Shown: positions 30,374-41,621 of the stretch, one piece after another | How the letters are laid out: the number at the start of each line of letters is the position of its first letter | How positions within the stretch are numbered: the stretch's first letter is position 1 | From: Geothrix sp. | GTDB lineage: Bacteria; Acidobacteriota; Holophagae; Holophagales; Holophagaceae | Length of the DNA stretch: 64,000 nt | Assembly: GCA_030681515.1 (NCBI GenBank) | Contig: JAUXSE010000022.1 | Span: 1-64,000, forward strand | Direction: 5' to 3' | The notes under the pieces: generated by a model | Database searches by the model: none | Seen by the model: only the letters and a program-made list of their open reading frames with translations | What the model was told of the DNA's origin: nothing | Program-made: the position numbers and the translations under genes

Positions 30374-30619
30374 TCAGGCCCGGCCCAATAGACGGGCCTT
30401 CGCCGCCCGCCGCATCCGCTTGATCTCCCGCTCCCGCCGCAGCGCCTCGGCCCTGGTGCCGCAGGCCTCTCGGTAGACCAGCCTCAGCGGCCCCCGCCCC
30501 CGGGTGTACTTGGCGCCCTTCCCCTCCTGGTGCTGCTCCAGGCGGGCCTCCACATCGAGGGCGATGCCGCAGTACAGGGTTCCGTCACCGCAGTGCAGGA
30601 GGTAGACCCACCAGGTCAT
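30374..30619 (-). CDS. GIY-YIG domain protein (UPF0213/YhbQ-like)
   Basis: An 81-residue single-domain GIY-YIG protein: WVYLLHCGDGTLYCGIALD gives the two-part GIY-YIG signature, followed by the Arg-containing helix RLEQHQEGKGAKYTRGRGPL and the Glu in YREA. The family is DNase-like, but cellular roles of the stand-alone members are not settled. The ATG overlaps the stop of the SpoIID-like gene (ATGA), placing it at the 3' end of the macroglobulin operon; this looks like positional coupling rather than shared function. Confidence 0.88.
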   Translation of the reverse strand: MTWWVYLLHCGDGTLYCGIALDVEARLEQHQEGKGAKYTRGRGPLRLVYREACGTRAEALRREREIKRMRRAAKARLLGRA

Positions 30620-32088
30620 GGTGTCCGCCACGAAAGCGGAAAGGCCTCGGCCAGGATCTGTTCCGCGGTGGCGCCGTTCGCGGCGCGGAAGCGGGCGGTG
30701 GCGAGGCAGAGGCCCACGTTGTGGCCCCATCCCCGGCCCTGCAGGCGCAAGGATCCATCGGGCTGAATCTCCGCCTCACAGGCATTGCTGGGCCAGCTCG
30801 TCCAGCCGAAGCGGCGCCCCGCGGCCAGGCGCAAGTCCTCCGTCGCGTAGGGTCCGGAATCCCCCAGCCTCAGGCCGAGCTGCCCCGGCTTCAGACCGGG
30901 CTTCACATCCCGCTTCAGGGCGGCGGCCTGGGCGGCGCTGAGGGTGCGTTCCCAGCTCCCCCAGCGATCATCGGGAACCTCGGCGGCACCACCGGGATCG
31001 GAGGGGCCATCCCCCCAGATCTGCCGCGGGCTGAGTGCGCGTCCCCCGGCCGACCCGGTGAAGAAGGCCCAGCGGGGATCCAGGTCCAGGATGGGGGTCG
31101 TGGACGCGGCCCGTGCCGAGTCCGCCGAGGCCGATCCCCGCACCACGGCGCAGTGGGTGAGTGGACAGAGGACACCGCCTGGATGCTGATGCGGATGTCC
31201 CTCGATCCATCGCCCGAGGACCGCCGCCAGGGCCCGGCGGGCCTCGAAGGGTGCGTCGGATCCCAGCTCGCCCTCCGTGGCGGCGGCGACCCAGGCGGCC
31301 CGGGATGCGGTCCAGGAAAGGCTCCAGCCGTGGGTTTCGGCCTGGACCTTCACGGCACCCTGAAGATCCCGCACCGGAAAACCAGCTGGGAAACGAACCT
31401 GCCCGCGGAAATGCCATGCCTGCCCGACCCGATGCGACAATTGTTGTCCATTCACAGTCAGGGGCCCCCGGAGGCGCTCCGCGGGCCAGACCACGGTGAT
31501 GGTCCCGGCCAGAGTGGTGGCCTCCTTCATCCAGGCATCCGTTCCCGGCGACCGGCGTCCGGGCGGTCCTGGAAGCGGTTCCCGCCGCAACCAGGCCCGG
31601 AGGCAGCGGTAGGCCCAGGCCTGCTCGCGGGTGGTGCCGCCCGCCAGGGCCCTGTCGAGCCGGTCCTGCAGCGGGCCCGTAGGCACTGCGGGCCACGGCT
31701 CCAGCGGCCGGCGGTGGGATTCCGCCCAGAGGCAGCGGGCCTCCTCCTCCCAGCGGTGCAGGTCTTTCAAAATCAGGCGCCGATGGGTCAGTTCATGCCG
31801 GAGGATGGCCCCCAGATTCCGGCGCCGCAGCTGCTCCCAGGGTCGCAGGTGGAGTGTATCGCCCATCCACTGGCCACTTCTTCCCGGAGGGGCGCCCGTG
31901 GCCCGCTCGAAAGCGGCGGCCTCCGCATGGATCCGGACCCGCCAGGGTTCCGCCGGCCATGCTCCGTGGGCCATCGTCGCGGCGAAGGCCGCGCGGAGGG
32001 CCTCCTCCACCGCGCCCCGGGCCTCGGTTTCCCCTTCGAGGATCGGTGGCGTGAAGGGTGGTACCGGTGCCTCGACGACCAGGAGCAT
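30616..32088 (-). CDS. SpoIID/LytB-like protein with an HExxH motif
   Basis: A 490-residue protein. The C-terminal domain (about 330-490) has SpoIID/LytB features: SNACEAEIQPDGSL, then GRGWGHNVGLCLATARF and the ending TAEQILAEAFP. SpoIID proteins cleave denuded peptidoglycan strands. The N-terminal half contains HELTH at 98-102, a zinc-metallopeptidase-like motif in an AILRHELTHRRL helix. The start is in a TGATG overlap with the transpeptidase-like gene, and no signal peptide is obvious at ATG 32088. It may correspond to part of the YfaQ/DUF2300 component of Yfa operons, but that equivalence is unverified. Confidence 0.7.
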   Translation of the reverse strand: MLLVVEAPVPPFTPPILEGETEARGAVEEALRAAFAATMAHGAWPAEPWRVRIHAEAAAFERATGAPPGRSGQWMGDTLHLRPWEQLRRRNLGAILRHELTHRRLILKDLHRWEEEARCLWAESHRRPLEPWPAVPTGPLQDRLDRALAGGTTREQAWAYRCLRAWLRREPLPGPPGRRSPGTDAWMKEATTLAGTITVVWPAERLRGPLTVNGQQLSHRVGQAWHFRGQVRFPAGFPVRDLQGAVKVQAETHGWSLSWTASRAAWVAAATEGELGSDAPFEARRALAAVLGRWIEGHPHQHPGGVLCPLTHCAVVRGSASADSARAASTTPILDLDPRWAFFTGSAGGRALSPRQIWGDGPSDPGGAAEVPDDRWGSWERTLSAAQAAALKRDVKPGLKPGQLGLRLGDSGPYATEDLRLAAGRRFGWTSWPSNACEAEIQPDGSLRLQGRGWGHNVGLCLATARFRAANGATAEQILAEAFPLSWRTP

Positions 32089-32894
32089 CAATCCTTCAGT
32101 CCCAGGATCTCCCGGATGCGGGTCATCCCTTCCTGCTTGCCCCGGCCCCGGGGAAGGTGGAGCACCACGAGCGCCGAACCGCGCCCGCCCGCCACCCAGG
32201 CGCTGGTGGCCGAAGGATCGCCGGGGACGGGCGCGGTGCCCGTCTTGAACCACCAGCCCTCCTTGCCGAAGAGGTCCTGCACCTCGACCCAGAAACTGGC
32301 GAGGAACCGCTTCCCGAAGGTCACCACCTCGGCCTTGTCCGGTTCCATGAGCCAGCGCAGGAAGGCCTCGGGGCTCGTCCGCAGCAGATCGCCATCCCCC
32401 ACCCAGGCGGGGGTCAGGGGTGGCAGGGCTTCCCCTGGCGGCAGGCGGGACCCGAGGAAAGGCGCGAAGACCTCTTCCATGCGCGCCCGGGCCGCGGCCT
32501 CCCCGTAGTCCGTCTTCCAGCGGGCATGGGCGTCCTGGATCCAGGCGAGGAAGGCGAGGTTGCAGCTCTCCCGGAGCGCTTTGCCCACATCCACCCGGCC
32601 ATGGCCCTCGTGGTTCCAACAGGTGAAGGAGCCCGCCGTGCCCTTGCAGGTGTACCGCACCCCCCGGCTGGACCATTCGGAACCCTCCAGGCGCATCCAC
32701 AACAGCTTGGCGAGGCTGCCCATGGGGGCCTCCTTCCGGGCTTCTCCGTAGGCGCGCACCTCGCCATCTCCCAGCGTGATGGCGAAACCCTCGCCCGGCC
32801 GCAGGGCCGGCGCCTGCATCGTAGCGGGCGCGGATGGGGCCGCCAGCAGCAGCGTGGCCATGGATGCGGCCAGCAGGAGCCTAGGGTTCCACAT
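32088..32894 (-). CDS. serine transpeptidase / class D beta-lactamase-like protein
   Basis: A 268-residue exported protein (signal about 1-25) with the three penicillin-binding motifs in order: SxxK as GSLAKL (Ser60/Lys63), SxN as ESCN (Ser110/Asn112) and KTGT at about residue 220. The short length and KTGT box fit a class D-like or stand-alone transpeptidase fold. Cys83, Cys92 and Cys111 could form a disulphide. ATG 32894 overlaps the end of the DUF2135-like gene by 14 bp. In this operon it may link the macroglobulin to peptidoglycan, much as ECAM is linked to PBP1C. Beta-lactam resistance should not be assumed. Confidence 0.72.
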   Translation of the reverse strand: MWNPRLLLAASMATLLLAAPSAPATMQAPALRPGEGFAITLGDGEVRAYGEARKEAPMGSLAKLLWMRLEGSEWSSRGVRYTCKGTAGSFTCWNHEGHGRVDVGKALRESCNLAFLAWIQDAHARWKTDYGEAAARARMEEVFAPFLGSRLPPGEALPPLTPAWVGDGDLLRTSPEAFLRWLMEPDKAEVVTFGKRFLASFWVEVQDLFGKEGWWFKTGTAPVPGDPSATSAWVAGGRGSALVVLHLPRGRGKQEGMTRIREILGLKD

Positions 32895-33744
32895 CAAAGG
32901 TCCCGAAGGTGACGGGTCCGGTGCCCGGCAGGATGAGGCGCTCCCAGGTCCAGCGGCGCTCCTGATCCGTGCCGCCGTCCAGCACGGCCTCCACCTTGAT
33001 GCGCGCGGGCTTGCCGCCGCGATATCCGCCCGTCCACTTCAGGGTGTAGGTGCCAGGCGGGGGCGTGTCGTGGGTGTACTCGCCGGACCAGCGCAACATG
33101 CCGCCGGAAGCCGTGCGGCGCCCGCCTTCCGCCAGTGCGCCATCGGGCTCCTGCACCTGGAGGCTGCCGCCGGTGTACTCGTCGTTGGCCTGGATGGATA
33201 CGACCCGCAAGCGCGTCCTGGCCGTGGACACCCACCAGCTGCGCACCACCCTCAGGCCCGAATCCGGTTCGAGGATCTCCAGGCGGTTCTCGCCGTTCTG
33301 GGCCGTGATCTCCATGTTCAGCGTGGTGCCGACCCGGGTGGACCAGGTGAGGGTCGAGCCGTTGAACCACGCCTTCAGGCTGCGTGGCCGCCAGGCCTGG
33401 CGGGCCGACTCGGCCTCCCGCTGCAGACGCTCCTGGCGGAGCTGCCCGGCCGTGCGGGTGTCCTCGGCTCCGGGATCAGTGCCGCCCTCATCCTCTTCGT
33501 CGTAGCCGTACTGCGGCCCTGGTTCATCCTTCGGTGGATTCGGGTCCTTGGGATCCACCAGCTTGATCCGCAGGTTCACCGTGCGGTCGCTGGACCAGCC
33601 GCCCAGGGCCGGGGACAGTTCCAGGCGCCACTGCTTGAGGTCGGGCACATAGGCTGCCGGTGGCGGGGGCTTGGGTGCCCGGGCCTGCTGCGCGCCCAGG
33701 AGGGCGGTGCTGAGGAGGAGGGCCAGAATCTTAGGTGGCCTCAT
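32881..33744 (-). CDS. YfaP-like (DUF2135) secreted protein
   Basis: A 287-residue exported protein (signal MRPPKILALLLSTALLGAQQA). It has an acidic/Pro-rich linker (about 60-100) and a beta-rich C-terminal region with WSGEYTHDTPPPGTYTLKWTGGY and RRWTWERLILPGTGPVTFGTFDVEP. This fits DUF2135, the YfaP component of E. coli Yfa-type macroglobulin operons, mainly on gene order and fold type. The ATG overlaps the macroglobulin stop (ATGA). It is likely a periplasmic partner of the macroglobulin. Confidence 0.65.
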   Translation of the reverse strand: MRPPKILALLLSTALLGAQQARAPKPPPPAAYVPDLKQWRLELSPALGGWSSDRTVNLRIKLVDPKDPNPPKDEPGPQYGYDEEDEGGTDPGAEDTRTAGQLRQERLQREAESARQAWRPRSLKAWFNGSTLTWSTRVGTTLNMEITAQNGENRLEILEPDSGLRVVRSWWVSTARTRLRVVSIQANDEYTGGSLQVQEPDGALAEGGRRTASGGMLRWSGEYTHDTPPPGTYTLKWTGGYRGGKPARIKVEAVLDGGTDQERRWTWERLILPGTGPVTFGTFDVEP

Positions 33745-36700
33745 CGCGCACCTCCATCCTGAATCTTCAGATCCACGCCATCGCTGGTGACCCACTGCCC
33801 TTCGTTCGACATCAGGCTCAGCTTCGCGGGGCGGAGCCGGTAGCTGCCTGCCATGCCTGCCCGCAGCAGGATCCTCACGGTATGCGTGTTCCAGCTCCAG
33901 GTCCGGTGGAAGAGGAAGGTCACCTTGTCCGCGTGGACCTCGATGCGGGGCTTCGTCCAGGCATCCGAGGATCCCTCCTCTGTGAAGGCCTTGCCTTCAA
34001 GCACGAAACCCTCCAGCTTCACCGTGGGATTGAGGCCGCCCGGAATGGGCACCTCGAGCATCACGTAGTCGGCATCGCGGTCCGTGCGGAAGGATACCTG
34101 CATCCAGGCCTCGTCGCCGGCCTTCAGGGTTCCGGTCCATGGCTGACGGATCCAGCCCTGGCTGGCATTCCCGGTTTCCTGGGGCGTCTTCAGGCGCCAG
34201 AGGTTCCGGGTCACGGTCATGCGCAGGGCCGAGGAGGATTCGCCCTTGGGAACACCGGCGGCACTGCCGGGCACCTGATAGGCATAGGTCCACGCCAGCA
34301 GGCCCCTGCCGCTGGCGGTGACGGTCACGGCCTTCGGCTCCGCCATGGCGTAGCTGCCCGCCCGGGGTTCGCGGGCATTCCAGCGGCGGATTTCGGGACG
34401 CTCCTTGAATTCCCAGGAGGGACCGCCCTGCACCGCGGCCTGAATGGACAGCGGGCTCCAGTCCAGCTTGCGGGTCTTCATGAGGTAGGGGAGCAGGTCC
34501 ACGATCTGCGAAGTGCTCCAGGTGGAATACCATCCGTAGCCGCGGTATTCGGAGGCCAGGAAGGTCTCCCCCTGGCGGATCAGCGGCGACTGCGGACGCG
34601 CCAGGCAGAGGGCCTTCAGCGCCATCACCGTGGGCACGATATCGCCCGAGGCGAAGCTCCACCAGTCCTCCCGGCGGCCCTCCCATCGGGCCAGGCCGCC
34701 CTTCACCACAGCCCGCTGTTCCAGCCGCTCGGCCAGGGCCGCGGCCTTGGGGTGTTTCGTCAGGGCGGCGGCCAGGGCGGTCATCGCATGGACATGCGCG
34801 CCACTCCAGGTGGCCGTCAGCACCTTGTCGGCGGAACTGTCCACCAGGCCCGCGATGGGTTCGCCGGTCAGGGCCAGCGAAAGCAGCAGGTAGGCGGCGT
34901 CCGCCTGGGGGTCGGCGCTGCGGCCCCTGGCCTGGTTCCCGGCGGCCTGATCGGCCTGCCGCGCAACCTGCTGGAAGAGGCTCATGGCGGCCATGCGGCC
35001 CCGGCGATAGACCCCTTCGTCCACGGTGTAGCCCAGGCGCTTCATGGAGGCAAAGCTCTGGATGGCATAGCCGGTCGTGTGGGGATTGGCATCCAGGCCA
35101 AAGTCGCCGGGCGCGTACCAGCCCCAGCCGCCGTTGGGCTGCTGGTAGGCATAGACCTTGAACACGCCGTCGCGGATGTTGCGATCCAAGTCCGTGAGCT
35201 TCTTCCAGTCCAGATCGGGCATGGCACCCTGCTTCACGAGGTCGGCCACCAGCAGGTTGGGCACGAAGCTCGACAGGGTCTGCTCGACGCAGCCGTAGGG
35301 ATAGCCGATGAGGTAGGGCAGCGAAGGCGCGGCTAGGTGCTCCAGATTGCCCACGGGGGTGAGGACCAGGGCCGCATCCCCTTTCGCCGACGGAGGCGGG
35401 GGGATGGTGAGGGTCTGCGATCCGCCGTCGAGCACCATGGAGCCCGACATCGTGGCGGGCACCAGCTGATCTTGCACGGTGACGCGCTGCCGTTCGGCGT
35501 CCTTCAAACCGCCACCTTCGACCCGGGCGGTGACCGTGAGTGGGCCGGTCTTCTCCGAGAACAGCGGCAGGGCGAAGCGGTACTCGCCCTGATCCTGAAG
35601 GGCGAAGGCGGCCTCGGGCGTGCCCGTGAACCGGCCGTTCTGGACTTCCATCCGGATCTTGCCGCTGATGGGCTGGCCGGAGAGATTGCGCACCAGGGCG
35701 ATGGCGCGGGCCTCCTCGCCCACGCTCAACGTGCGCGGCAGGGTGAGGGCCACCTGGAGGGGTTTCGAGGCGGGCCTGGAACTGCGGCCCACGCCGACTT
35801 TCGTATCGGCAGTCACGGCCGTGGCCGTGGCCCGCCAGGCCGTGAGGTTATCCGGCAGCACCAGGTCCACGGTGGCCTTCCCATCGCGGCCCGCGGCCAC
35901 GAAGGGCGTCCAGTGCGCCGTGTCCTTGAAGTTCTGGCGCACCTTGTCATCGTCGTCGGCCTTGAAGTCGCCGCGCTTCGTCTGCTTGAGGCTCCACACG
36001 GGACGCTGGCGGCGCAGCAGGTCGTGGAAACTCCAGTCCGTGGAGCCCGACCGCAGCACGCCGTGGCGGCGGGTGGGGTGGAAGAAGCGTACCGGATCCG
36101 GATGCAGTTCCTGGCTCAACGCATAGATGGCTTCGTCCACCACGCCCACGCTGAGATCCGCGGCGGAGGGCCGCCCGGCGGTGTCCGTCACTTCCACGAA
36201 CACCTTCATGGGCTGGCCGGGCTGGTAGCGCTCCTTGTCCGTGGTGACGGCCACCTGCAGGCGGCGGTCCCGCTTGGGCACGCGGAGGGGCACCTCCACC
36301 ATCTGTCGGCGGCCTTCGGCCACGATCTCGAACACGGCCCAGACATTGGGCTGCATGGCGGCGGTGACGGGCAGCTCCACCATGGCGGTGGTGCCCTGCA
36401 CGACGCGGCTCTGGCGCTGGCCGAGGCCTTCGTGTTCCAGGGCCCAGTGCAGGGTCAGTTTCGGCCGGGGCAGCTGTACGAGGATGCGCGCTGTGTCGCC
36501 GGGCTGATATTCGGGCTTGTCCGCGGTGGCGCGGAGATCCGGCACCGCGGGCAGCGGCGTGCCTTCGGCGGCCACGGTGATCTGCCGCTGGGCCATCACG
36601 GGGCGCCCCTTTGCATCCTTCGCCTCGGCCACCAGCAGGAAGGCCCCGCCTTCGGGAATGGTCAGCATGGCCTGGGGGCCCGGAGCCGAAGCCACGGTTT

Positions 36701-38486
36701 CGCCAGGCTTCAGGGCATTGGGCCTCGACCACCAGTAGGCGTTGTCCTTCTGGGCCACGATGCGGGCGGCGCGCAGGACGATGGCCACGCCCGGCACCTC
36801 CTTGCCATCCAGATCCAGCGCCCGGGCCGTCACCTGGAAGGGCTTGCCGGGCAGCGCCACCTGGCGGTCCGCGGCGATCATCAGCACCAGGTCACCCGCG
36901 GCGGCGCGCACCTGGGCCTGGCCGCTGTTGCGCTGACCCGAGGCATCCGCCACCTTCACCACCATGCGCCAGAGGCCGTCGCTCTCCGCCTTGAAGCTGG
37001 GCAGGTCGGCCTCGCCTTCGTCATCCAGTTCCAGCTGGCCGCTTTCCATCAGTTCGGGCGCGGGACCCGAATCCTCGTCATCCCAGATCCAACGGCTCTT
37101 GGGCGGAACCACCTTGTAGAGGAACCAGTCGGCCTTGGCGCCGCGCACCGCCGCGCCATAGAAGTAGCGGGCGTTCACATGGAAGTCCAACGCGTCACCC
37201 AGCCCGACCTTGGTCTTTTCGGTCGTGACCTTCACCTCGAAGGCGGGTTTCACGAACTGCTCGACCTTGAACTCGGCCTGGCCGGGCCCCTGCGGCCCCT
37301 GGAACACCATGCGGTAGAGACCCAGGCGCCCCGCCCCCGGCAGGTTGAACTGGGCGGCGTAGGTGCCGGTTTCGGCGTTCAGCAATGTCGCCTGGCCCTC
37401 GGTGACCTTGGTGTCCTCGGGATCCAGCACGGTGAATGCGAGGGTCTGGGAGCCATTGGCTACGCGGTTCTCCCCATCCTCCACGCGCCGCAGGATGGCC
37501 TTGGCGAAGACCTCCTGGCCAGGACGGTACAGGGGCCGCTCGGTGAAGGCGTAGAGACGCTGGCGCACCCCGGCGGCACTCTGCCCTTCGCTGGCGAGGA
37601 TGGCGAAGCTGGCTCCGCTCCGCGCCATCACGACGCGGCGGACGCCGGGTGCGACCAGGGCCTCGGCCTTGCCAGCGCCGTCGAAGGCCAGCGGCTGGAC
37701 TTTCGCGCCCTCGATGATCTGACCGGATGCACCAGCCTTCACCGCGCCATCCCGGCCATCCACCGCCTGCACGCGGATCCGTGAACCGTCCTGTTCCGAG
37801 AGCAGCGCCAAGTCCGTGACCATCCAGGGCACATAGGCCGCATCGCCACCCCGCAGCACCTCTACCAGATAGAGGCCCGCCGCCTGCGCCGGCAGTTCCA
37901 CGCGGCTGAGGAAGCCGTCATCACCGGATTCATCGTCCTCATGGCCCTTCTTCCCAGTGATGTCCTCGTTCACCTTGGGCACGATCTCAGTAACGAAAGT
38001 GATGCCAGGCTGGCCTTCGAGCGGTAGCGCGGACCCTTCCCGAACCGGCGCTGGAGAGGTCTTCGCGGAGGTCAGCCGCTCGGTCTGCTTGGCAGCGTCC
38101 CGCAGCCCCTGGGTGGCCGTGCGGTGGACGGTGACGAAGGCGCGCCGGCCGCCCCAGAGCACCGCCTCCCGCAGCACGTCCAGGGGATCCTGCGCGCCTC
38201 GCCCGCCCTCGGCGACCGCCGCGCCCCGGTCCAGCAGCACCTTCTTCAGGAAGGCCTCCGGGTCCTCCACGCGGTAGATGCGGATGCGGGCCTCGGCGGG
38301 GATGGGGCCCGCGGCCTCCAACTGCCCTGGTTTCCCCGGCAACGTGGGCCGCAGGGTGGCGAAGGCGCCGGTCCAGCCGCCTTCGCGCCAGGGCGCCTCG
38401 GCGGCCCGTTTCTGGGCCGTCCCCATGGTGGGCAGCAACAGGACCGCGGGAATCAGGAGGGAGATAAACGGTCGGAACCAGCGCAT
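33741..38486 (-). CDS. bacterial alpha-2-macroglobulin with a CVEQ thioester motif
   Basis: A 1581-residue exported macroglobulin (signal MRWFRPFISLLIPAVLLLPTMGTAQ, no lipobox). MG-type beta domains run to about residue 900 (TERPLYRPGQEVFAKAILRR; TDKERYQPGQPMKVFVEV). The A2M family block VVDEAIYALSQ...LPDNLTAWRATATAVT comes next, then the thioester domain GYPYGCVEQTLSSF with Cys1066 followed by GGWGWY helical repeats, and a C-terminal receptor-binding-like domain. Such proteins trap proteases that breach the periplasm. The operon order (DUF2138-like, DUF1175-like, A2M, DUF2135-like) is Yfa/Mag type, yet those macroglobulins are described as lacking the thioester, whereas this one keeps CxEQ. 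The start lies one base after the upstream stop. Confidence 0.95.
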   Translation of the reverse strand: MRWFRPFISLLIPAVLLLPTMGTAQKRAAEAPWREGGWTGAFATLRPTLPGKPGQLEAAGPIPAEARIRIYRVEDPEAFLKKVLLDRGAAVAEGGRGAQDPLDVLREAVLWGGRRAFVTVHRTATQGLRDAAKQTERLTSAKTSPAPVREGSALPLEGQPGITFVTEIVPKVNEDITGKKGHEDDESGDDGFLSRVELPAQAAGLYLVEVLRGGDAAYVPWMVTDLALLSEQDGSRIRVQAVDGRDGAVKAGASGQIIEGAKVQPLAFDGAGKAEALVAPGVRRVVMARSGASFAILASEGQSAAGVRQRLYAFTERPLYRPGQEVFAKAILRRVEDGENRVANGSQTLAFTVLDPEDTKVTEGQATLLNAETGTYAAQFNLPGAGRLGLYRMVFQGPQGPGQAEFKVEQFVKPAFEVKVTTEKTKVGLGDALDFHVNARYFYGAAVRGAKADWFLYKVVPPKSRWIWDDEDSGPAPELMESGQLELDDEGEADLPSFKAESDGLWRMVVKVADASGQRNSGQAQVRAAAGDLVLMIAADRQVALPGKPFQVTARALDLDGKEVPGVAIVLRAARIVAQKDNAYWWSRPNALKPGETVASAPGPQAMLTIPEGGAFLLVAEAKDAKGRPVMAQRQITVAAEGTPLPAVPDLRATADKPEYQPGDTARILVQLPRPKLTLHWALEHEGLGQRQSRVVQGTTAMVELPVTAAMQPNVWAVFEIVAEGRRQMVEVPLRVPKRDRRLQVAVTTDKERYQPGQPMKVFVEVTDTAGRPSAADLSVGVVDEAIYALSQELHPDPVRFFHPTRRHGVLRSGSTDWSFHDLLRRQRPVWSLKQTKRGDFKADDDDKVRQNFKDTAHWTPFVAAGRDGKATVDLVLPDNLTAWRATATAVTADTKVGVGRSSRPASKPLQVALTLPRTLSVGEEARAIALVRNLSGQPISGKIRMEVQNGRFTGTPEAAFALQDQGEYRFALPLFSEKTGPLTVTARVEGGGLKDAERQRVTVQDQLVPATMSGSMVLDGGSQTLTIPPPPSAKGDAALVLTPVGNLEHLAAPSLPYLIGYPYGCVEQTLSSFVPNLLVADLVKQGAMPDLDWKKLTDLDRNIRDGVFKVYAYQQPNGGWGWYAPGDFGLDANPHTTGYAIQSFASMKRLGYTVDEGVYRRGRMAAMSLFQQVARQADQAAGNQARGRSADPQADAAYLLLSLALTGEPIAGLVDSSADKVLTATWSGAHVHAMTALAAALTKHPKAAALAERLEQRAVVKGGLARWEGRREDWWSFASGDIVPTVMALKALCLARPQSPLIRQGETFLASEYRGYGWYSTWSTSQIVDLLPYLMKTRKLDWSPLSIQAAVQGGPSWEFKERPEIRRWNAREPRAGSYAMAEPKAVTVTASGRGLLAWTYAYQVPGSAAGVPKGESSSALRMTVTRNLWRLKTPQETGNASQGWIRQPWTGTLKAGDEAWMQVSFRTDRDADYVMLEVPIPGGLNPTVKLEGFVLEGKAFTEEGSSDAWTKPRIEVHADKVTFLFHRTWSWNTHTVRILLRAGMAGSYRLRPAKLSLMSNEGQWVTSDGVDLKIQDGGAR

Positions 38487-38487
38487 G

Positions 38488-39444
38488 TCAGGACCTTGGA
38501 AGGGAAGGCTCAAAGGGCTCACCCGCCAGCAGACGCCAGCGGTAGAGGCCCAGGAAGGCGGGGTTCTCAGGCAGGGGGCGGAAATCAGGATCGGGGTGGT
38601 GCAAGAGGTCATCGAGCCGGGCGCGGCGGATCTCGCCGGGCTGGCGGATGGCGCCGCTGCCCTCGGGGCCCGTGTGGTAGATGAGCATGGATGCGCCGTC
38701 CACGTCGGGCCGCACGAAGGCCATGGCATGGTCCGGCTGGGATCGCGCCCCGCCCCGGGCGAAGAAAATCAGATCACCGGGCCGCGCCAACTGGAGATCC
38801 CGGCCCATGGAAACGCAGGAAAGGCGGCGAAGGTACAGGCTCCGCGCAAAGGGCTGGGGGCCTTCGGGTGTGGGAAATCCTGCGCGCCAGGGCCGCGCGA
38901 AACCGGGCGATGGATCCTGCCCTGGTGGCCCGGATGTGAAGGCCACGCGCTCCCGCCAGGCGGTCGTGTGCCCGGCCAGGGCTTCGCGGAAGGCGAAGCG
39001 AAGCAGGCCCGCGCAATCACGCTGGGCTGGCTCCCAGGCGGGGCTGGCCGCCTCCAATTGCTGTTCCAGGATGGCCACGAACCAGGTGCGGAAGGCCTCG
39101 CGATCGCCTTCCTCGCGCAGCGCGACAGGGGACAGTCCCATCGTCCGCGCCAGCATCAACGATTGTCTATAACCCGGCCAGGCTGTCAGGGTCAGATCCT
39201 GTGGGTGGTCCGTCACCAGGAGAAAAAAGCCTCCATCCTGGTCCTGCCAGCCAGGGGCGCCCGAAAGAACCACCTTCCACCCGGGCCTTTTCAGGCCAAG
39301 CAGGCTCCGGCTCTCCACGCGGATATGCTTCACCGGATTGGTGGCATTGGATTCAACCGTCACCCGGTGGCGCACTGGAGCCAGCATTGCAAAGGCGGCG
39401 GCGGCCACGACCATGGTCGCGGCAAGGATGCGGATTCTTTTCAT
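38488..39444 (-). CDS. YfaT-like (DUF1175) protein
   Basis: A 318-residue protein with an N-terminal membrane segment or uncleaved signal ([23 protein letters not shown]). The body has a papain/NlpC-like arrangement: Cys in [16 protein letters not shown], and later [12 protein letters not shown] and DHAMAFV with a candidate His, followed by LIYHTGPEG. This pattern fits DUF1175 (YfaT), which neighbours the macroglobulin in E. coli-type operons. The ATG overlaps the upstream stop (ATGA) and the stop is one base from the macroglobulin ATG, so expression is tightly coupled. Confidence 0.72.
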
Positions 39445-41621
39445 CGCGGCCGTCCCTCCAGTCCGCCGGGGGTCCAGTTCCACTCCAGGCGCACCGGGCC
39501 CAGGGCCTTCACGGCACCCAGGAAGGGACCGAGGCTGAAGGCCAGCTCAGCGGCGGCCTCATCCGCGCTGGTCGTCTCGCCGATCCACCACCCGCTGCCC
39601 GAGCGGCTGCGAAGATAGGCCAGCAGCAGGTTCTCCAGCTCCTTCGAGGCCCGTGCGCCGTCCACCTCCATGCGGGCCCAAGCCCGGGATTCGCTGTCGG
39701 CCAGGGTCGGCGCCTGGCCCTGGAGACCCGCGGACACCGCCTTCACCGCGGCCTCGTCCGTGCCCAGCACCAGGGTGTCGGCCACCAGCGTCCAGGCAGG
39801 ACGGAAGGCCTGGGCGGTCTGGATGCGGTGCAGTTCCGATGCGCCGGCGGCCTGCTTCTGGTTCTGCCCCTTGAAGAGCCGGGGCAGCACCTTCTTCAGG
39901 AGGTTCTCCACCTGGACCCGCTTGGCGCCCTGCACCGGCAGGGCCAGGGCCAGGCTGGGGGTCATGCCCGGCTCGCCGAAGCCGCCAAAGGCCGCGATCT
40001 TCCCATCGCGCTGGGCCTGCACGGCACGCCAGGGATCCTCGCGCCGCAGCTTGGCCAGTTCCGCCAGCGAAGCCTTTTCGGCGGGATCCAGGGGCGGCGC
40101 GCTCACCCATCCGTTCCAAAACAGCGCCGCGCCGCGCAGATCCAGGCAGGCTTGCAGGGTCGTGGCATCCTGGCGCATGGCCGTCCGCTGGCGCTGGCGC
40201 TCCTGGGCCCTGGCGAGGGCCTCCCGATAGCCCTTCATCTGCGTCGGACTGAGCGACTGGCCGCCGTTGGCGAATTCGGGCAGCTCCGGCAGCTGGAAGT
40301 CGCTGGCATCGTCCACGCGGAGGATGGCTTCGACCATCTTCTCAGTAGGACCGGCGCCGAGCGCCACGGCCAGAGCCCCGGTCCGGGGCGCGGCCTTGGC
40401 CACGGACGGGTTGAGCCAGGTCCCCTGCTGGGCGCCCGACAGACGGCGACGGAGGGCCTGGTTCTCGAAGGCGGCGTCCGCGCCGATGCGCGGCGTCACC
40501 CAGAAGGACAGCTCCGTATCCGGCGTCATGGCGGACAGCGCCACCCGCGCCCACTCGCGGCGCTCTCCCAGACTGGGATCCGGGCCCGGGAACAGCAGGG
40601 CCCGGAGGGGTGCTTCCCGATCGCTGATCCAGGTGCCCTCGGCCTTCTGGATCAGGTGGAAGACGCCGCCGGATCCGCGCAGCTGCTGAACCTCCGTGGA
40701 GGTGCCAGGGCCGGTCCACTTCACCACCCGGGATCTCGCCCCCGCACTCATGGGATTCAGCTTGAGCAGCGCCATCATCAGCTGGGTGCGGGTCGGCAGG
40801 TCGCCAGGGATGAACACCAGGTTGCCCTGGATCGTCTGGCCGCCCTCGCGGTCCGTCCCGTAGTGCAGCACCCAGGCTTCGCGGTTCGCCAGGGGCTCCA
40901 GGGCCGGGGAGGCCTGCTTCAGCCACGGATCCAGATGCCGCACGGCGAAGCCGGCGCGGGTGCCCTGGGCCAGGGCTGGTACGATGCCATTGGCACTTCC
41001 ATTGGAAGCCGCCCCCGCGCCACCGGCCAGCGCCACCAGCTTCTCGAGCCCGGGCCGCAACTGCTTCAGATGGATGAGCACACCGGGTTGGACGGCCAGT
41101 TCCATGCCCTTCGGAAGCGTTGCGTGGCCGGATTGCGTGAACAGCGCGGGACTGGGAATCCACTGGAAGCGCCAGCCGCCCTTGTCCAGATGCAGGCCCA
41201 GGCCATGGGTCCAGGGGCGATCCAGATGGTCGGCAGAGCCGAGGTAGGTGTAGGGGTCCGCGCCCCCGCGCCTGTAGCCCCGCTGGTAAAGGAAGAGAGC
41301 CGTGTCCTGGTCCCAGGACTTCAGCGCCTCCTCAGCCCAGACGGACACTGAGTGCTGGCCGAGAAGCGCCAGAGCCACCCTGCGGGATTCGCGGCCCTGC
41401 TTCAGATGCGCCATCATCTGGCCCCACTGCTCGGCCGGCGTCATCTTGGAAAAAGGCACGGACTGCCAGATGCGCTGCCCCCGAGCATCGTTGCGATAGG
41501 TGGACCATCGCTCCGCCCGCTCCTGCGCCCAGGCCGGAACCTGGCCGCCACTTTGGGCCAGGGCCGGCAGCCCCGCACAACCCAGGGCAAGCACACACGA
41601 TCCCTGCGCGATGTGTCGCAT
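39441..41621 (-). CDS. YfaA-like (DUF2138) protein, first gene of macroglobulin operon
   Basis: A 726-residue exported protein (signal [23 protein letters not shown]). No enzyme motif is recognised. Features include [49 protein letters not shown] and a helical Lys/Arg/Gln-rich middle. The place ahead of DUF1175-like and macroglobulin genes matches the DUF2138 (YfaA) component; the assignment is by context and approximate length. ATG 41621 is preferred because AGGGGG precedes it, although a GTG at 41642 is in frame. The promoter is likely in the 106-bp divergent gap shared with hutI. Confidence 0.62.

Follow-up and report, generated by a model that had tools for sequence, protein, structure and literature searches.

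A macroglobulin gene in the window, the 64,000-nucleotide stretch of a Geothrix sp. contig analyzed here (JAUXSE010000022.1, positions 1 to 64,000), lies in an operon of the Yfa/Mag family and encodes the CxEQ thioester motif. We consider it likely that this operon is an older form of the Yfa/Mag operon which retains the thioester, and that it would link peptidoglycan enzymes with a periplasmic trap that captures proteases covalently and has a rebuilt lock over its thioester bond. Two types of bacterial macroglobulins have been distinguished, and type II is defined by the absence of CXEQ (PMC5764988; this and the other papers are cited from passages of their texts). In type I the thioester is needed for trapping; MagD of Pseudomonas aeruginosa traps a protease non-covalently and binds MagA, MagB, and MagF (PMC5764988). 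A previous sequence-only reading of this DNA had stated that Escherichia coli YfaS and MagD lack CxEQ and that the motif is found in the YfhM/PBP1C type. All three points were borne out, the first by the YfaS sequence, the second by PMC5764988, and the third by the pbpC-linked proteins.

The alpha-2-macroglobulin (A2M) gene occupies 33741..38486 on the minus strand, from an ATG start to a TGA stop, and encodes 1581 residues; its coordinates and thioester motif are those previously read from the sequence. Pfam placed MG2, MG3, the bait region domain (A2M_BRD), A2M, the thioester domain (TED), and bMG10 above the cut-off, and the NCBIfam scan gave no A2M match. The bait region domain spans residues 652-790 (36117..36533, minus strand; PF07703, E 8e-17) and the TED match residues 1055-1270 (34677..35324, minus strand; PF07678, E 7e-8). 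The thioester motif YPYGC1066VEQ covers residues 1062-1069 (35280..35303, minus strand), and Cys1066 sits in GYPYGCVEQTLSSF. The domain layout thus puts CxEQ at its proper place, the start of the thioester domain. GCVEQ (residues 1065-1069) is the motif of type I, and its presence conflicts with the definition of type II (PMC5764988). The two tyrosines shielding the thioester in SaA2M and ECAM (pocket residues according to PMC4498604) are both present in the window protein, as YPY before Cys1066. Read by eye, the N-terminus resembles a Sec-type signal peptide and has no lipobox cysteine. The 3.2 Mb genome holds no A2M other than this one. Chance occurrence of CxEQ was rejected, since all 17 macroglobulins that are linked to DUF1175 within the genus or family keep YPYGCVEQ; their identity to the window protein falls to 64% (5 of the 17 compared).

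An AlphaFold2 model of residues 850-1581, built with 46 relatives, reached a predicted local distance difference test score (pLDDT) of 82.5 and a predicted template modelling score (pTM) of 0.77. Cys1066, residue 217 of the model, lies directly ahead of a helix formed by model residues 218-236. When compared by Foldseek and VIA-align, the model matched native C3, A2ML1, ECAM (4ziu/5a42), and SaA2M with TMq values of 0.62-0.65, and activated forms with 0.29-0.37. The alignment with 4ziu gave a VIA Z of 24.7 and 4.3 Å over 595 residues, and the thioester domain alone was superposed on complement C3d/C4d at 2.8 Å over 259-266 residues. The Pfam domains and the model fold identify the window protein as a member of the alpha-2-macroglobulin family.

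The gene directly upstream (38488..39444, minus strand) encodes a DUF1175 protein of the YfaT/MagC family, which has an NlpC/P60-like fold (PF06672, E 3.3e-44; hhalign to YfaT, 99.7%). Its ATG overlaps the stop codon of the preceding gene, and the A2M gene follows one base away. This arrangement is that of the Yfa/Mag operon family. P. aeruginosa MagC (PDB 7bk8) was recovered with the DUF1175 family profile at an E value of 2.6e-67. A survey, citing the MagC paper, describes DUF1175 as inactive and peptidoglycan-binding (PMC10318531). Despite the label "inactive" in those passages, the DCA and H..M residues, at the Cys and His positions of the NlpC/P60 type, are invariant in 8 diverse DUF1175 sequences and present in MagC.

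We surveyed the macroglobulins adjoining DUF1175. DUF1175 was found in 37 of 297 Acidobacteriota genomes, and a CxEQ-bearing A2M adjoins it in all 36 Acidobacteriota loci besides the window; in the same genus, the two genes were co-present or co-absent in each of the 10 genomes sampled for both. A species-genome scan added 80 loci, several of them contigs already covered. Three further groups contained DUF1175-positive genomes: Deinococcota (21/111; regions fetched for 18), the phylum of genome G297 (5/247; regions fetched for 3, plus one via the species-genome scan), and Myxococcota (87/195; 15 regions fetched, 8 with strong and 7 with weak matches, plus 4 strong ones via the species-genome scan). 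The counts started from 166 DUF1175 loci. Left out were 16 that had no same-strand A2M within a distance of 2.5 kb and 9 that had only pieces of 1000 residues or fewer, and string matching served to eliminate near-identical rows. CxEQ was present in 127 of the 132 non-redundant DUF1175-adjacent A2M open reading frames (ORFs) of more than 1000 residues, from Acidobacteriota, Deinococcota, Myxococcota, and others. The sequence-only reading had taken the thioester for an exception in this operon type. The motif is instead the rule, no local oddity, and is near-universal in DUF1175-linked A2Ms outside Gammaproteobacteria. The five without CxEQ are E. coli YfaS (L149), the K-12 yfaS pseudogene (L068), a Citrobacter protein (L150), one Myxococcota protein (L195), and L100, a fragment of a split ORF in which CxEQ lies on the other fragment. 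In the seven weak-DUF1175 Myxococcota loci, YPYGC/YPFGC..EQ lies at a distance of 0.6-1.6 kb. Two Deinococcus plasmids (L154, L155) carry DUF1175 genes without an adjoining A2M, and the AJ005 plasmid also has a thioester A2M (L178) at another site.

The direction of change is indicated by L204, a complete yfa operon whose source genome shares its phylum group with a metagenome-assembled genome of Candidatus Zymogenaceae. Pfam detected DUF2138 (8e-117), DUF2300 (4e-40), two DUF2135, and A2M domains in this operon, and DUF1175 was detected by profile. The motif region of E. coli YfaS reads EPWGGVINTGSRLIPL, and that of the L204 macroglobulin reads AYPWGCVEQTASRLIPL (YPWGCVEQ). In trees built without the thioester-motif columns, the L204 protein grouped with the two YfaS proteins in both the 64-row and the 22-row tree (Shimodaira-Hasegawa-like approximate likelihood ratio test, 100). 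Because L204, the sister of YfaS, retains CVEQ and the pbpC-linked A2Ms also carry CxEQ, the simplest reading is that the thioester was lost on the YfaS branch. There, C would have changed to G, E to I, and Q to N, and YfaQ is degenerate. The L204 contig could be a binning error, which would alter the host and not the argument. The window protein had been suggested to be "ancestral or hybrid". The first term is supported for the operon family, given CVEQ in L204 and the near-universal CxEQ, whereas the second is not supported, as the clade of pbpC-linked proteins excludes the window.

Two further cases were noted. The Myxococcota protein of L195 (L195:6157-10413) is DUF1175-linked and has a DUF2135-like neighbor, its thioester region is eroded, and the lock in its MG10 domain is gone; to judge from these features, it is a second loss of the thioester within the operon type. 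Three Deinococcus plasmid records (L179, L180, L181) contain A2Ms that have neither a DUF1175 neighbor nor CxEQ nor a Met-Tyr lock, and they probably represent another loss.

Several points weigh against a thioester-retaining older operon form with a covalent trap. The structure check that had been proposed around Cys1066 supports the position of the cysteine ahead of a helix and a native-like fold, but the block around it reached a pLDDT of only ~62. The proteobacterial YfaS proteins in the data are those of E. coli and Citrobacter only, MagD being taken from the paper. The first gene of the cluster has no Pfam or NCBIfam match to DUF2138, and its hhalign E value against YfaA (0.19) is like that of unrelated pairs. 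The window family forms a long branch of uncertain depth, and in an approximately unbiased (AU) test on 22 of the 64 rows, a topology that sets the window family together with the pbpC clade apart from all other rows was not rejected (p 0.166). Finally, the lock tyrosine is replaced in the window lineage, which could mean a hydrolyzed or altered thioester.

The AU test and the type I motif would both suit a macroglobulin of type I (YfhM-like) that had ended up in a cluster of the Yfa type. This is very improbable in our view, since the five pbpC-linked A2Ms (E. coli YfhM, Sinorhizobium meliloti, and three Acidobacteriota) form a clade of their own with support of 99 and 100. Nesting of the window protein within the YfhM clade, which the sequence-only reading had named as the outcome that would count against it, was rejected because this five-member clade excludes it. 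Moreover, no pbpC was found among the cluster genes or the neighbors examined, the A2M has no lipobox, and the link to DUF1175 is near-universal in the sampled loci. The rows nearest to the window by tree path outside its own family are DUF1175-linked Myxococcota proteins. A position inside type I is thus contradicted, whereas a position as sister to type I is compatible with the AU test.

The cover over the SaA2M thioester consists of two tyrosines from the TED and a Met-Tyr pair from the C-terminal MG domain (PMC4498604). The corresponding lock site in MG10 of the window protein is Met1559-Ser1560 (33807..33812, minus strand), in the segment RPAKLSLMSNEGQWVTSDG; another member reads APARAELMYQP there. 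Among complete non-redundant proteins, LMS occupies the lock in the window protein and all 17 family relatives, whereas Met-Tyr is found in 99 of the 100 other thioester-bearing members. The remaining one, L081, has CxEQ and an unrelated-looking tail, perhaps due to a frameshift. Met-Tyr is kept in all five pbpC-linked A2Ms. Four proteins without CxEQ are also without Met-Tyr, among them the K-12 fragment, which has no true C-terminus and is uninformative. Five additional large A2Ms from Acidobacteriota (L157, L159, L161, L168, and L172; frames of ~1540-1980 residues) have GCxEQ and a C-terminal motif of the YYNP/YYDP/YYAP type in place of Met-Tyr; one Acidobacteriota genome (G051) has 11 PF00207 matches.

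The altered lock residue makes covalent trapping less certain for the window lineage than for its relatives. Under a Met-Ser lock, either something else shields the thioester bond or its reactivity is higher. One explanation is that the thioester is a relic: CVEQ was kept after the Met-Tyr lock had gone, the bond is hydrolyzed or never formed, and the protein is a non-covalent trap like MagD, which traps without a thioester (PMC5764988). The loss of the lock tyrosine throughout the family agrees with this, as does the absence of Met-Tyr from the CxEQ-less L149, L150, and L195. A relic, however, ought to decay, and YPYGCVEQ is identical in 18/18 proteins with identities down to 64%. In addition, the segment that replaces the lock, LMS.E..W, is conserved, with a tryptophan five residues past Ser1560 in 18/18, and looks like a rebuilt lock. 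We therefore regard a relic as unlikely and prefer a functional thioester under a rebuilt lock: in the window family, the thioester motif would have stayed while the covering Met-Tyr changed to Met-Ser. Our guess is that the conserved tryptophan takes over the role of the lock.

The A2M gene is the third of six minus-strand genes whose ends overlap or almost touch (41621-39441, 39444-38488, 38486-33741, 33744-32881, 32894-32088, and 32088-30616). All 17 DUF1175 loci from this genus or family retain the six genes, except that the outer genes of L059 run off the contig. The genes listed by the sequence-only reading are present, but the last two, transpeptidase-like and SpoIID-like, had been overlooked. 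Its assignment of a Yfa/Mag gene set is upheld for the DUF1175, A2M, and DUF2135-like genes and fails for the DUF2138-like gene. The first gene (39441..41621, minus strand) encodes 726 residues with a signal-peptide-like N-terminus and has an orthologue at the same position in all 17 loci. It occupies the position of YfaA/MagB (DUF2138); homology to DUF2138 was rejected by sequence, and position and size alone fit. The fourth gene (32881..33744, minus strand) encodes a secreted DUF2135-like (YfaP-like) protein of 287 residues, and its ATG overlaps the stop codon of the A2M gene (ATGA). This protein has no Pfam match, being below Pfam detection. A single hhalign comparison with the profile of YfaP from E. 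coli, Citrobacter, and L204 gave an E value of 1.5e-7 over 146 columns, which supports its identification as the putative DUF2135 (YfaP) partner.

The fifth gene (32088..32894, minus strand) encodes a penicillin-binding-protein-like transpeptidase with SLAK60-63, SCN110-112, and KTG217-219. It matched NCBIfam pbp2_mrdA with an E value of 5e-6, under the curated cut-off, PBP2 in the PDB in the active-site region (E 7e-4), and a portion of the N-terminal half of YfaQ (hhalign E 6e-5). The sixth gene (30616..32088, minus strand) encodes a SpoIID-like protein with a HELTH motif resembling a metal site, which has no Pfam or NCBIfam name. phmmer linked it to fusions of Transpeptidase and SpoIID in other Acidobacteriota (E 4e-5 to 3e-10), where these fusion proteins come after the DUF1175-A2M pair. 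In L055 the fifth and sixth genes are one ORF (SpoIID_LytB, E 0.0042). Direct comparison of the sixth gene with YfaQ gave a weak hhalign match (E 0.015), and DUF2300, the YfaQ family, has no match anywhere in the genome. Taken together, the fifth and sixth genes are probably the counterpart of YfaQ, corresponding to its N-terminal and C-terminal halves, respectively. The SxxK, SCN, and KTG motifs are intact in the window transpeptidase-like gene and its 17 relatives (18/18), and in 8/8 other non-enterobacterial loci checked, L204 apart. In E. coli, Citrobacter, and L204 they have decayed to SCG and KTW/KTF. Since L204 has degenerate transpeptidase motifs yet still the thioester motif, the decay of YfaQ probably preceded the loss of the thioester.

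According to our proposal, the window A2M would be exported, and a protease cutting the bait region would trigger the conformational change of the family. The predicted thioester between Cys1066 and Gln1069 would then be exposed, and the transfer of Gln1069 to a protease nucleophile would capture the protease covalently. The DUF1175 (NlpC/P60-like), transpeptidase-like, SpoIID-like, and DUF2135 proteins may assemble around the trap as a peptidoglycan-facing module with putative enzyme activity. Given these partners, the operon may be a "trap and repair" unit with a defensive role, following a logic like that of YfhM-PBP1C. Peptidoglycan-type partners would also suit a real thioester that attaches to a target other than a protease, such as the cell wall or injected wall hydrolases, in the way complement C3 marks surfaces. 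The model agrees with native C3 no less than with A2M, and MagD protects P. aeruginosa against some peptidoglycan-targeting effectors of the type VI secretion system (T6SS) (PMC12663445). Against such a target, the window A2M has a bait region domain, and what has been measured for bacterial members of the family is the capture of proteases (PMC5764988, PMC4498604). We thus think a non-protease target quite improbable and retain the covalent protease trap.

Like the type II operon (P. aeruginosa magABCDEF and E. coli yfaA-yfaT-yfaS-yfaQ-yfaP), the window cluster is tight and has the DUF1175-A2M core pair, a DUF2135 protein, putative YfaQ-like functions, and a secreted A2M without a lipobox. 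It differs in the presence of CVEQ, the intact transpeptidase motifs, the Met-Ser lock, the probable split of YfaQ into two genes placed after the DUF2135 gene, and a first gene not recognizable as DUF2138. With type I (ECAM/YfhM, SaA2M) and its PBP1C, it shares CxEQ, the YPY pocket tyrosines, the bait, TED, and MG10 domains, and the coupling to peptidoglycan enzymes, whereas it lies outside that clade, has no pbpC and no lipobox, and has Ser for the lock Tyr. The L204 operon is likewise a yfa-type operon with a DUF1175-linked CVEQ macroglobulin, but its A2M is sister to YfaS and keeps Met-Tyr, and it has a true DUF2138, DUF2300, and degenerate transpeptidase motifs.

The MagD work treats the missing thioester as defining and asks how type II acts without it; the present distribution recasts this as a question about a loss on one branch. 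Since the thioester is the usual state of the cluster outside the E. coli-type members, the textbook two-type split of bacterial macroglobulins may need redrawing. More tentatively, and with somewhat less than even confidence, we propose that the split is not basic: the DUF1175 operon would first have combined a covalent trap with an active transpeptidase and SpoIID-type enzymes, MagD/YfaS with YfaQ would be a doubly degenerate branch, and the window family would have built a new lock (Met-Ser...Trp). Our search found no title or abstract reporting that the DUF1175-A2M operon usually carries the thioester, or reporting the lock replacement, subscription papers being mostly outside its reach, and neither point is discussed in the passages of two 2026 reviews (PMC12939704, PMC13069473). 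Free-living bacteria provide relatives with a thioester that can serve as direct comparison partners, among them a complete yfa operon that stands beside YfaS, and the lock replacement offers a clean test of thioester protection. The distribution further suggests that a trap is coupled to peptidoglycan enzymes in both macroglobulin operons, and this fits the protection by MagD against wall-degrading T6SS effectors.

Scans of viral contigs with YfaS and the Citrobacter protein gave 91 pattern stretches and no relative. The scan with YfaT gave six enterobacterial-looking yfaA-yfaT fragments, none with an adjoining A2M. In these six IMG/VR contigs (L182-L187), an opposite-strand ORF of 360 residues lies close after yfaT, at the expected start of yfaS (e.g. 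L182:8625-9704, L187:2467-3546). Pfam identified the ORFs of the two contigs scanned as lambda-type integrases. The yfaT/yfaS junction seems to be a site of prophage integration that would cut the operon. In the window itself, the operon is followed immediately, on its own strand, by a small gene with a GIY-YIG domain (30377-30619, minus strand; E 9e-17).

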